DNA of 56,587 nt. It comes from an uncultured Bacteroidales bacterium (GTDB taxonomy: Bacteria > Bacteroidota > Bacteroidia > Bacteroidales > F082). Both the position numbers and the translations under genes were made by a program. The stretch's first letter is position 1, and every line of letters begins with the position of its first letter. The DNA is taken from the NCBI GenBank assembly GCA_905236635.1, contig CAJOCJ010000010.1, forward strand, positions 1-56,587, given 5' to 3'. This document shows, piece after piece, positions 49,825 through 52,892 of the stretch. The notes beneath the pieces were generated by a model. The model did not search any database, was not told the origin of the DNA, and saw nothing but the letters and a program-made list of their open reading frames with translations.

Positions 49825-50910
49825 CTAATTGTTTAACAAATCCCTTTGCGGCGGAAGCACATGTGACGGGATATCCAGACTGCTGCCATATATGACATAA
49901 TTATTGTGGTGATAATAGCTGCCATTACCGACATAACCCATCATTCCGACGATGTCAACTTCGATAAAAGCAGGTGGTGCAGGCATTATACCTTGTGCGA
50001 CCAAATCGGCAGGCAACAAATGCAGCAGCACTTCCAGTTCCCTCGTATAGTAATAATTAAGCAAATCGCCATTAAGATAAGTAGGAGGATTGCCATTCGT
50101 ACTATAAAAATACAAATAAGGATTTCCGTCGCTATCAAAATACTCGCTACCTTCTAGAGAAACCATCAACATATCATGATGCAGTTTTCTGAATCCACTC
50201 TGAGGAACTTTAGTTCCATGATAATAATAGTTGATTGTATCCTCAATAATTTCTGCTGCATCGCCAAAAACAGAAGGGTCGTCGCAAGTTCCGCCATATT
50301 CGCCGAAATACCAACAGTCGTCAGGACCAAATGGACCAGGAACGGGATCTTTAAAACTCACGCTACTATCTTCCATTTTACCTGAAACGACACAAACCTT
50401 AAGCGTCACCCTATTCCCAACAGTTTCACCTTTGTCAACGACAACAGCCATCAGCGATTTGTCGGTGTTGATACCGTCATTGGCATATGCCTGTCGCACC
50501 GAAGAAGTTATTTCATCATACAAATCGGCAACCACATCGAAAGGAGCCTCGCCATCAGCATTCACATCGACAAAAAACTCCAATTCTTGTCGTACCGTCT
50601 CAGAATATTTCCGCTCTGAGAACGTATATTCCGCGTTGAACAGAGCCTCCACATTCCAAATGATACTGTCGATAGGCATATAAAGACCACTTCGTGTAAC
50701 ATACTCTCTATCATCGAGCTGCTGCTTGAATTTCATAATTTTACCCGCCACAACTTTAGCTTCCCCGGTATATCCCGGATACTCATTTTGACCCATATTA
50801 TTATTAGGTGTCACAATATCTTTCTTGCATGCTGCAAGATAAACAGCAGTTCCAACCGCCAAAAGCACAATAAGTGCAAAACCTTTGAATTTTTTCCGTT
50901 TCATAAACAT
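49825..50910 (-). CDS. Hypothetical lipoprotein heading the RHS cluster
   Basis: 361 residues. Lipoprotein signal: after the basic start (KRKKFKG) a hydrophobic run ends in LAACKKD, with lipidated Cys at about residue 28. A Met at residue 3 (50904) is the alternative start. The mature part contains acidic, asparagine-rich stretches and a cysteine pair (DDCWYFGEYGGTCDD) that may form a disulfide. C-terminal residues YHHNNYVIYGSSLD are rich in aromatics. I do not recognise the family. It is the first complete gene of the cluster. The sequence around its start (TTCTAAAAT, ATG, AAACGG) is nearly repeated around the short ORF 122 bases upstream. Confidence 0.7.
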   Translation of the reverse strand: MFMKRKKFKGFALIVLLAVGTAVYLAACKKDIVTPNNNMGQNEYPGYTGEAKVVAGKIMKFKQQLDDREYVTRSGLYMPIDSIIWNVEALFNAEYTFSERKYSETVRQELEFFVDVNADGEAPFDVVADLYDEITSSVRQAYANDGINTDKSLMAVVVDKGETVGNRVTLKVCVVSGKMEDSSVSFKDPVPGPFGPDDCWYFGEYGGTCDDPSVFGDAAEIIEDTINYYYHGTKVPQSGFRKLHHDMLMVSLEGSEYFDSDGNPYLYFYSTNGNPPTYLNGDLLNYYYTRELEVLLHLLPADLVAQGIMPAPPAFIEVDIVGMMGYVGNGSYYHHNNYVIYGSSLDIPSHVLPPQRDLLNN

Positions 50911-51233: not shown

Positions 51234-51241
51234 TATTTTTG
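51234..51241 (+). promoter_or_regulatory. -7 promoter element for pyrBI
   Basis: TATTTTTG fits TAnnTTTG, 170 bases before the pyrB ATG. Transcription should start about 51245-51248, at or just before the ATG of the leader ORF (51249). Confidence 0.65.
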
Positions 51242-51248
51242 CATTCCG

Positions 51249-51437
51249 ATGATACTACAAAAATTGTTATCGGACAAGCGCCAAAATGGCGTAAAAAAAG
51301 GAAGCAATTCCACTACTTTTCATCATTTTTCATCAGCTGACGGCCATTTGAAGCCGTCATTTTTTTGCTTGAAAATCATATATTTAACAAACAAAATAAA
51401 TCATTATCACAATGTCAATCTCTTTGAAAAATCGTAG
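51249..51437 (+). CDS. Candidate pyrBI leader peptide ORF (62 codons)
   Basis: The ATG at 51249 opens a frame of 62 codons that starts [14 protein letters not shown], passes through two hairpins, a U-rich tract and the terminator stem at 51338-51366, and stops at 51435-51437, 26 bases inside pyrB in another frame. In enterobacterial pyrBI a leader ORF (pyrL) likewise crosses the attenuator. The protein itself resembles nothing and is probably not functional. A weak point is that the ATG lies within a few bases of the expected mRNA start, so it would be translated as a leaderless message. Confidence 0.45.
51278..51330 (+). promoter_or_regulatory. Pause-type hairpins and U-rich tract in the pyrB leader
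   Basis: Stem GCGCC/GGCGT (51278-51282 with 51288-51292), then a small hairpin GGAA-GCAA-TTCC (51300-51311) with a GNRA tetraloop, then a T-rich tract with runs of four and five T (51317-51330). A hairpin followed by a U-rich stretch just before a terminator is the arrangement at which polymerase pauses when UTP is low in enterobacterial pyrBI. Confidence 0.5.
51338..51366 (+). terminator. Intrinsic terminator (attenuator) in the pyrB leader
   Basis: TGACGGC (51338-51344), 8-base loop, GCCGTCA (51353-51359): a perfect 7-bp GC-rich stem followed by seven T (51360-51366). It lies 45 bases before the pyrB ATG and after the pyrB promoter, so it must either stop transcription or be controlled. 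It closes no upstream plus-strand gene, because the region before it is the divergent RHS cluster. Confidence 0.85.
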
Positions 51438-52332
51438 CCTGATTTCAATCAGCGACTATACGCCTGAAGAAATATGCCATGTTTTGGACGTAGCCGAGGA
51501 CTTTGAAAAGAACCCGCACCAGAACCTGCTCAACGGCCGTATCATCGCCTCATTGTTCTTCGAGCCGTCAACACGTACGCGTCTCAGCTTCGAGACCGCC
51601 ATCCAGCTGCTAGGCGGCAACGTCATCGGATTCAGCAGCACCGCCGGCACCAGCGTCCAGAAAGGTGAATCGCTGGCCGACACCATCACCATGGTGGCAT
51701 CATACGCCGACCTCATCGTGATGCGCAACCCTATCGAAGGCTCAGCACGCTTCGCCTCAGAAGTGTCGAAAGTGCCGGTCATCAACGCTGGTGACGGCGC
51801 CAACCAACACCCGACACAGTGCATGCTCGACCTCTACAGCATCCGCAAGACCCAGGGAACACTGGAGAACCTCGAGATCACCCTCGTGGGCGACCTCAAA
51901 TACGGACGTACCGTGCACAGCCTCGTCGAAGCCATGTGCCACTTTAACGCCAAGTTCAACCTCGTCTCCCCTGTCGAGCTCAAGCTCCCGAGCGTGGTGA
52001 AACAGCATATCAAAGACAAAAACCTTGAGTATCATCAATATACGGAGCTAGAAGAAGCCATCCCGCACTCAGATATCATCTACATGACTCGTATCCAGCG
52101 CGAGCGCTTCCCAGATCCTGAGGAATACGAAAAAGTAAAGAATTCATATGTCTTGCGTAACGCAATGCTCGAGAACTCAAAGCCTAACTGCCGCGTTCTG
52201 CACCCGCTTCCACGCGTCAACGAGATCCATGTGGATGTCGACGCCAACCCGAAGGCTTACTACTTCCAACAAGCCCAAAACGGCGTCTACGCACGTGAGG
52301 CTCTTATCGCAACAATTTTAGGACTGAAGTAG
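51412..52332 (+). CDS. pyrB: Aspartate carbamoyltransferase catalytic subunit
   Basis: 306 residues, normal length. It joins carbamoyl phosphate and aspartate, the first committed step of pyrimidine synthesis. The carbamoyl-phosphate motif [13 protein letters not shown] is at about residues 49-61. Further motifs are [17 protein letters not shown] (about 127-143), [21 protein letters not shown] and HPLPRVNEI. It is followed by pyrI after a 60-base spacer, so the enzyme should be the allosteric dodecamer. The leader upstream holds promoter, pause hairpins, a leader ORF and an attenuator-type terminator. Confidence 0.98.
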
Positions 52333-52392: not shown

Positions 52393-52860
52393 ATGGAAAA
52401 GAGAAAAGAATTGATTGTATCCGCCATTGAAAACGGTACAGTTATCGACCATATCCCAGCCGACAAAGTGTTTCAAGTCGTTAAAATCCTCGGACTTGAG
52501 AAAGTGAATAACCCCGTATATTTCGGCACCAACGTTGACAGTAAGAAATACGGCAAAAAAGGCTTCATAAAGGTGTCAGACAAGTACTTCAACCTTGAAG
52601 ACGTCAACAAAATCGGTTTGGTGGCTCCTACAGCAACCATCATCGAGATCAAAGATTTTGAAGTCATTAAGAAACAAACAGTTACGCTTCCTGAAAGCAT
52701 CGAGCATATAGTGAAATGCTTCAACCCGAACTGCGTCACCAACAAGGAACACGACGTCCCAACCAAGTTCCGCGTCATCAAAGACAAAGACGGAAACATC
52801 AAACTGCATTGCCACTACTGCGAAAAGAACACCACGCAGGACAAGCTGGAATTTATATAA
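52393..52860 (+). CDS. pyrI: Aspartate carbamoyltransferase regulatory subunit
   Basis: 155 residues. The allosteric domain (about 1-100) begins KELIVSAIENGTVIDHIPAD, the segment that binds CTP and ATP. The zinc domain has four cysteines in the usual pattern: CFNPNC (about 112-117) and CHYC (about 142-145). All zinc ligands are present, so it should assemble with PyrB and give CTP inhibition. An intrinsic terminator follows 10 bases after the stop. Confidence 0.97.
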   Translation: MEKRKELIVSAIENGTVIDHIPADKVFQVVKILGLEKVNNPVYFGTNVDSKKYGKKGFIKVSDKYFNLEDVNKIGLVAPTATIIEIKDFEVIKKQTVTLPESIEHIVKCFNPNCVTNKEHDVPTKFRVIKDKDGNIKLHCHYCEKNTTQDKLEFI

Positions 52861-52863
52861 AAT

Positions 52864-52892
52864 AAAAAAGCTCGGCGTTGCCGAGCTTTTTT
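52864..52892. terminator. Bidirectional intrinsic terminator between pyrI and DUF3467
   Basis: GCTCGGC (52870-52876), loop GTT, GCCGAGC (52880-52886); A-run before and T-run after the stem. It serves pyrI on the plus strand and, read the other way, the DUF3467 gene that ends at 52896. Confidence 0.92.

Follow-up and report, generated by a model that had tools for sequence, protein, structure and literature searches.

The window, a 56,587-nucleotide stretch of DNA from an uncultured Bacteroidales bacterium, carries pyrB and pyrI, the genes for the catalytic and regulatory subunits of aspartate carbamoyltransferase, and both score above the cut-offs of NCBIfam equivalog models (Table 1). It belongs to a genome (G000) of 2.05 Mb that is 90.6% complete, and the nearest relatives of its pyrB come from Bacteroidales MAGs. 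About 500 bp separate pyrBI from a divergent gene without a Pfam match (49825-50910). In this gap an earlier note, made from the sequence alone, had listed a promoter box, an ATG opening a 62-codon frame, several stems, T-runs, a terminator and a leader stop codon overlapping pyrB, and we found every one of these elements. The leader ATG occupies 51249-51251 and the stop 51435-51437, 26 bases inside pyrB, and the encoded peptide has no NCBIfam or Pfam match. The segment 51241-51375 folds at -37 kcal/mol, compared with a mean of -22.8 for shuffled sequences (z -3.96, with 0/200 shuffles as stable). An Rfam scan of the window returned no family at gathering score, and a scan around the leader with E up to 5 returned matches far under the gathering scores, none of them useful. 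At the other end of the operon, a strong terminator stem (GCTCGGC-GTT-GCCGAGC followed by T, window 52858-52892) lies 9 nt beyond the end of pyrI; passages of PMC7819879 and PMC7858274 describe a spacing like this for bacteria with uncoupled transcription.

Table 1. Features of the pyrB leader and of pyrBI in the window.
Feature	Coordinates	Strand	Basis
-7 promoter box TATTTTTG (consensus TAnnTTTG)	51234..51241	+	sequence
Predicted start-site cluster T6 C7 C8 G9	51245..51248	+	counted from end of -10-like hexamer 51234-51239
Hairpin P1 (predicted), 51245-51254 with 51265-51274	51245..51274	+	fold, arm permutation, pair counts, further genera
Leader reading frame, 62 codons + stop	51249..51437	+	sequence; open frame conserved
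Middle stem GCGCC/GGCGU, possible pause hairpin	51278..51292	+	fold
GGAA-GCAA-UUCC (GNRA) hairpin	51300..51311	+	fold
U-rich tract, candidate UTP-sensitive pause	51317..51330	+	T enrichment before terminator, genus and family
Intrinsic terminator TGACGGC(CATTTGAA)GCCGTCA + T7	51338..51366	+	7-bp stem, 8-nt loop; sequence, fold
pyrB, aspartate carbamoyltransferase catalytic subunit	51412..52332	+	TIGR00670, 370.6 bits, cut-off 236.95
pyrI, aspartate carbamoyltransferase regulatory subunit	52393..52860	+	TIGR00240, 151.8 bits, cut-off 148.55

Our comparison covered the GTDB family with 104 unique pyrB leaders; the window's genus contributed 51 of them and other genera 53. Within the genus, one locus with a partial pyrB (L067) was excluded before extraction and 60 other upstream regions were kept. 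Two of these had no box (L042, L069) and four had no terminator (L039, L043, L065, L066), so that a TAnnTTTG-type box upstream of a leader and a terminator were both present in 54/60 loci; removal of three duplicates (L048, L063, L090) left the 51 unique leaders. The genus set used for hairpin analysis (n=55) includes the four leaders without a terminator, and the genus alignment A1 (53 leaders) excludes L039 and L043. In other genera we found 68 pyrB places and fetched 66 of them (40, then 26), G158 and G135 having no upstream sequence. The first set consisted of the 40 and 4 named loci, from which 6 duplicates and two loci that gave no result (L135, L147) were removed to leave 36 unique leaders. 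Of the 26 loci in the second set, 17 were scored, and none repeats a leader of the first. Four others were dropped by rule, three without a terminator (L284, L289, L299) and one without a box (L296), these being alike by eye, and five needed a hand-set pyrB start and stand outside the totals (L297, L302, L303, L305, L306). One MAG holds two pyrB copies with identical leaders (L062 and L063; JAFYNJ010000003.1 and JAFYNJ010000013.1), which could be either a true duplication or an assembly artefact. The comparison, which the earlier note had suggested as a check, showed that promoter, open reading frame, U-rich tract and terminator are conserved over most of the family.

With few exceptions, these leaders have an open reading frame that reaches the terminator. 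The frame that starts at the first ATG stays open to the 5' arm of the terminator in 97/104 unique leaders, with 7, 227 and 121 stops in frames 0, +1 and +2, counts that do not represent independent trials because the leaders are related to one another. Within the genus it is open in 50/51 leaders (frames +1 and +2: 1 and 26; stops 1/119/55), in the first set from other genera in 35/36 (3 and 10; stops 1/78/48), and in the second in 12/17 (0 and 5; stops 5/30/18). It is also open in both L305 and L306, two of the leaders with a hand-set pyrB start that were kept outside the totals. The single exceptions in the genus and in the first set end 11 nt (L068) and 9 nt (L138) before the terminator stem. 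Among the five exceptions of the second set, four end 5-16 nt before the stem, where a stopped ribosome would still partly cover it, and one ends 51 nt before it (L293).

The peptide shows no comparable constancy. Among equal-length genus leaders, taken as two subsets of 15 unique leaders each, differences at codon positions 1/2/3 numbered 823/986/912 and 1015/1187/1157, and single-base codon changes divided into synonymous and nonsynonymous at 158:571 and 279:666; between genera the peptides differ. Because the frame is kept open while the three codon positions vary about equally, selection appears to act on openness and not on the peptide. A drifting peptide in an open frame is as would be expected if the frame serves only to bring a ribosome as far as the terminator, and an open frame with an irrelevant peptide is, as far as sequence can tell, the logic of E. 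coli pyrL/pyrBI. Attenuation that senses the peptide or particular codons (trp-type) is disfavoured by the equal divergence at codon positions.

The T-runs of the U-rich tract lie at 51317-51320 and 51326-51330. Over the leaders, the mean T fraction is 0.50-0.57 in the 15-20 nt preceding the terminator versus about 0.2-0.3 further upstream, an enrichment with which UTP sensing would be consistent. The two hairpins between the leader ATG and this tract, to which the earlier note had drawn attention, are present in the window, but the family as a whole does not share them. Folds of the middle region have a mean z of -1.68 against shuffles in the genus (z <= -1.5 in 22/41) and of -0.34 in other genera (6/35), and stems resembling GGAA..UUCC are seen, by eye, in part of the genus only. 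We therefore rejected a middle pause hairpin as a general family feature, since it does better than shuffles in the genus only.

The start of the transcript can be predicted from the box, although two lines of reasoning give different positions. Excerpts of PMC9723704 place a TAnnTTTG-type box at -12 to -5 in F. psychrophilum, and +1 is therefore predicted at 51246 (C7). In B. thetaiotaomicron, according to parts of PMC7366714, a purine is found at 86% of starts, which speaks against C7 and favours G9 or A10; a start position that moves could reconcile the two. Position 9 is G in 90/91 unique family leaders, and only two of the 91 have anything other than pyrimidines at positions 6-8. This start context, TTTG-nnn-YCCG (pattern TANNTTTGNNNYCCG), is found at 19 places in G000 versus 5 in a reversed control. 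Many of the 18 places other than pyrB lie upstream of ribosomal-protein and stable-RNA genes, namely those for ribosomal proteins L34, S20, S15, L31 and L21, three tRNA genes and RNase P RNA, and a YceD-domain protein gene is also among them. With 18 other promoter-like sites that carry it, the context is no peculiarity of pyrB, and this counts against start switching. The complement CGG lies in the P1 window at 5/18 of these places (three tRNA, RNase P RNA and L202) and is absent in 13. As an observation in its own right, the recurrence of TTTG-nnn-YCCG(A) before ribosomal-protein, tRNA, RNase P and YceD genes in G000 (L192-L210) may mark growth-rate-controlled promoters in the window's genus. 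One of these loci (L202, about 1511-1538) has, by eye, the look of an rRNA leader, with a strong first hairpin in the register of P1 (-13.4 kcal/mol), and it gave no Rfam match.

What the earlier note had missed is a conserved hairpin at the very 5' end, here called P1. In the window its 10 predicted base pairs cover the predicted start, and the leader ATG sits in its 5' arm. In folds of 45 nt per leader, the first P1 pair lies 4-5 nt after TTTG in 47/55 genus leaders and 33/36 leaders of the first set from other genera. Single leaders are not strong evidence for P1, as only 28/55 and 19/36, respectively, have <=5/100 shuffles as stable. The pairing is more evident when leaders are considered together. 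The complement of positions 7-9 lies downstream in 84/91 leaders, versus a mean of 66.7 (max 75) when arms are permuted and a mean of 21.8 (max 32) in shuffled windows. When the 5' bases change, so do their partners: in these 91 leaders, CGG accompanies CCG in 68/71, CGA accompanies TCG in 4/4 and CAG accompanies CTG in 3/3, with CGG in none of the TCG or CTG leaders. In the second set from other genera, CAG accompanies CTG in 12/12, and 15/17 of the whole set contain their own complement. The TTG leaders, 9/12 of which contain CAA, say nothing, because CAA is common (53/71 CCG leaders also contain it). Nor does the covariation extend to position 6, where leaders contain the complement of their own 4-mer in 54/91 cases, not above permutations (mean 43.0, max 56).

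Pairs were also counted on alignments, for the genus and for other genera separately. In the genus alignment, 87.3% of P1 cells are paired versus 86.4% after shuffling (31/500 as high) and at most 48.8% when the arms are slid, and the covariation score is 0.188 (24/500 shuffles as high; 0.192 when slid by -1); within the genus, then, conservation and not covariation dominates P1. In other genera, 72.8% are paired versus 67.4% after shuffling (0/500 as high) and at most 41.5% when slid, and for 8/9 pairs there are leaders in which both partners differ. Such double changes affect 18 cells versus 8.8 in shuffles, but 22 when slid by -1; the count of 18 is lowered by several alignment rows that are visibly out of register. 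The predicted outer pairs of P1 covary between genera (CCG:CGG, UCG:CGA, CUG:CAG). Since positions 7-8 keep their partners, we infer that transcripts should, at least in part, begin at or before positions 7-8.

P1 also stays with the start codon of the leader frame. The first ATG lies in the 5' arm of the predicted hairpin in 50/50 genus leaders. In other genera (n=33) it lies in the 5' arm in 6, in the loop in 5, in the 3' arm in 17 and 0-2 nt after the hairpin in 5, so that 83/83 leaders with a predicted P1 have their first ATG within the hairpin or 0-2 nt behind it; in the second set it is inside P1 or <=3 nt from it in 14/14. One leader of genus g5 (L091, the same locus as L112) has an intermediate look, with CCGATGAC, which gives a 5'-arm ATG, versus CCGRTAAC elsewhere, and a 3' arm that reads ACGTTAACGG versus ATGTTAACGG and has no ATG. 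By its predicted fold, then, the hairpin keeps the start codon although the arm that holds it changes between genera. The earlier note had regarded the nearly leaderless ATG as a weak point; the ATG is indeed near the 5' end, but this is the site where P1 could act. A version of P1 with the arms TTTGNNNYYYGRTAACA-N2..20-TGTTARCG is found in 13/149 family genomes and 3/16 genera, at one place each (the reversed control gave one place), and only beside pyrB, 12 upstream of known pyrB places and one (L281) upstream of a pyrB frame. The distance between the arms is 25 nt in 43/48 genus leaders and 13-33 nt in other genera.

The predicted stability of P1 depends on the first base of the RNA. In the window, folds from T6/C7/C8/G9 reach -10.0/-8.7/-5.6/-3.9 kcal/mol over 45 nt and -13.2/-11.9/-8.8/-6.8 kcal/mol over 46 nt. 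A fold from T6 reaches -8 kcal/mol or lower in 32 of the 55 genus leaders, 25 of which stay above -4.0 when folded from G9. In a 100-nt fold of the window leader, the AUG is paired even from G9 and opens partly only from A10.

Not all leaders carry these elements. In the genus, L039 and L043 have a box close before pyrB without P1 or terminator, and L069 has no such promoter, its pyrB following another gene and a terminator. A subclade of the genus (L077, L080-L082, L084, L086, L087) has a TTTGATG start, a 5' fold of 0 to -2.9 kcal/mol and almost no P1, and genus g11 (L149, L290, L291, L293) lacks P1. In other families of the order we scanned 63 upstream regions by script, in a sample that is uneven because it was drawn from best matches and a hand-picked 40 genomes. 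Among the families sampled, pyrB frequently lies behind another gene that has a plain terminator, and leader frames that run into a terminator recur without P1. Ten regions had a box, a terminator and an ATG; the frame is open in 7/10 (+1 and +2: 1 and 3; stops 6/20/16), with two of the seven (L222, L226) resting on a doubtful pyrB start. In L103 the frame is open only from the second ATG. Frames ending in or near a terminator before pyrB, without a 5' hairpin, were observed in L223, L228, L240, L173, L103 and L107, and by eye only in L224, L234 and L245; the peptides look alike within a family by eye (e.g. L224, L240). Among the other pyrimidine genes of G000, pyrD lies closely behind an upstream open frame, with no box followed by a leader of this kind in the stretch read, and pyrE is preceded by a box of its own and by a short untranslated leader that has neither P1 nor a terminator. 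For carA, the best TIGR01368 match reached 36.6 bits, short of the cut-off; at 90.6% completeness, the gene could be either missing from the assembly or absent from the genome.

When UTP is low, polymerase transcribing E. coli pyrBI pauses at a U-rich tract, the ribosome on the leader catches up, and the terminator is blocked. Passages of PMC10135430 and PMC5021804 set out this mechanism for the attenuator with its leader, pyrL. For comparison we used the pyrBI (L215) and pyrC (L216) leaders of MG1655. Like pyrBI, the leaders described here have a frame that runs from shortly after the start, via the terminator, to the start of pyrB, and a U-rich stretch ahead of the terminator; the window and pyrL both have 89 nt between the ATG and the terminator stem. 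The pyrL stop lies 3 nt before pyrB, and family leaders often stop 4 nt before it. Unlike in E. coli pyrBI, the leader ATG sits in a 5'-terminal hairpin, and the T-rich peak is directly at the terminator instead of about 15-20 nt before it. E. coli pyrBI starts with AATTTG and undergoes reiterative transcription (parts of PMC6245113), whereas the start region of the window has no TTT after the start. That the TTT start of the TTTGATG subclade would suit UTP-dependent slippage is speculation.

The 5' end recalls a different E. coli gene. In E. coli and Salmonella, pyrC and pyrD choose their start sites in a nucleotide-sensitive manner and a 5' hairpin blocks translation, pyrC starting at C7 when CTP is in excess and otherwise at G9; this start choice and its hairpin were reportedly described by Wilson in 1992, by Sorensen in 1993 and by Liu and Turnbough in 1994. 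The MG1655 pyrC leader reads TATCCT-TTGTG-TCCGG...CCGGA, that is, T6 C7 C8 G9 and a hairpin made from those bases. The window likewise has TCCG at positions 6-9 after the -10 hexamer, and those bases form the 5' arm. The pyrC folds over 46 nt from T6/C7/C8/G9 are -9.7/-8.7/-5.6/-3.6 kcal/mol, so the energy steps on 5' shortening are similar; only the steps are comparable and not the totals, because the window's 46 nt include part of a second hairpin. The difference is in what the hairpin covers, which in pyrC is the gene's own ribosome-binding site and here would be the initiation site of a leader frame whose target is a terminator. Two genus leaders, L065 and L066 (both at 2459-2504), have P1 directly before pyrB without a leader frame or terminator; these are closer to pyrC, and on their sequence they are a natural pyrC-like arrangement. 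A further parallel is B. subtilis pyrG, where CTP-sensitive initiation feeds attenuation and G residues added by reiterative transcription prevent termination (passages of PMC4448216). As there, events at the RNA 5' end would decide whether a terminator forms before a pyrimidine gene, but no such repeat is needed here, and the two would be connected through translation of the leader frame.

These observations suggest a leader that works in three steps. With plentiful pyrimidine nucleotides, no ribosome would be close, the terminator would form and pyrBI would be off. With scarce pyrimidines, polymerase would slow at the U-rich tract, the ribosome would catch up and block the terminator, and pyrBI would be on. 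P1 would set how often ribosomes start on the leader frame. RNAs that begin at C7 or upstream would form the full hairpin and hide the ATG, and those that begin at G9 or A10 (51248-51249) would lose the outer pairs and expose the ATG more; by analogy with E. coli pyrC, the choice of start could track the CTP level. The parts of this model differ in strength. We consider pyrBI-type termination and readthrough, the first two steps, to be likely. The gating of the leader frame by P1 is, on balance, favoured. The two combined, with start switching kept out of the claim, make the reading we prefer, and we hold it to be reasonably probable. The earlier proposal of a pyrBI-like attenuator thus agrees with the anatomy of the leader but was incomplete, as it lacked the ATG-holding hairpin. 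Nucleotide-sensitive start choice at the pyrB leader is a more doubtful proposition, and we are equally tentative about its consequence, two sensors in series in which CTP-sensitive start choice would act through P1 and the ATG, and the ribosome together with UTP pausing would then decide the fate of the terminator.

The strongest competitor is attenuation of the plain pyrBI type, in which sensing is by UTP pausing alone and P1 either stabilises the 5' end or plays no part in regulation. In its favour, no pyrBI part is missing, the TTTGATG subclade and genus g11 largely do without P1, and so do frames and terminators in some other families. Against this, the pairing of P1 is kept despite sequence change, the start codon remains within or next to the hairpin even though the arm differs, and a mere stabiliser would not need to hold a start codon; we give this reading a minority chance, though a serious one. 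It is improbable that the leader frame mainly aids pyrB translation by termination-reinitiation, with the terminator as a fixed dampener outside pyrimidine control. Many leaders do have their stop close to the start of pyrB, 4 nt upstream in 11/51 genus leaders and with an overlap in others, including the window. The stops range, however, from 56 nt within pyrB to 70 nt upstream of it, and where a frame already ends in the terminator or shortly before it, as some do, pyrB would be poorly reinitiated.

Slightly less probable still is that the inverted repeat is a regulator site, bound either in the DNA, as an operator across the start, or in the RNA, by a PyrR-like protein. A repeat does cover the predicted start, and the half CGRTAAC/GTTARCG is conserved in three genera, but arm sequences differ between genera, the CGRTAACA version is found at pyrB only, and arm distances of 13-33 nt in other genera are unlike a fixed operator. 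A DNA operator of fixed spacing is disfavoured by these distances; the near-constant 25 nt of the genus does not speak against it. In Bacillus, PyrR-dependent attenuation of the pyr genes uses a terminator in the pyrimidine operon leader. The leaders described here share that terminator, but unlike in the PyrR system no PyrR (NF003549) scored over cut-off in 40 genomes (0/40, with weak phosphoribosyltransferase matches in 31; controls over cut-off 6/14), and no alternative pairing is above chance. The chance that an antiterminator hairpin or riboswitch governs the terminator independently of translation is very nearly negligible. With the 3' arm omitted, the terminator 5' arm can pair upstream over >=5 bases in 24/51 genus leaders and 8/36 others, but a shuffled middle region gives means of 26.3 and 13.9, and the openness of the frame would be left unexplained.

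Ribosome-assisted antitermination, on which a pyrBI-type attenuator gated by P1 would depend, requires a ribosome near the polymerase. We surveyed 457 kb of G000 with 327 reading frames of >= 120 aa, 22 of which have a terminator within 120 nt, 9 at <12 nt from the stop codon, 2 at 12-19 and 11 at 20-59. This spacing favours neither of the two patterns, coupled and uncoupled, described in passages of PMC7819879 and PMC7858274, and because 9/22 terminators lie <12 nt from the stop codon, coupling in G000 is uncertain. That the leader frame has been kept open argues that coupling matters at the pyrB leader. Among the open-access papers searched, we found none on pyrimidine attenuation in Bacteroidota. 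If the proposed mechanism is true, the choice of transcription start would control termination via translation of a frame whose peptide is irrelevant, and if the start-choice part is true, a single leader would combine controls that are found apart in E. coli, at pyrC and at pyrBI. Because the frame stays open across the family while its peptide drifts, it provides evidence that translation acts on transcription at the pyrB leader, which would make this leader a natural reporter of ribosome-polymerase closeness in Bacteroidota.
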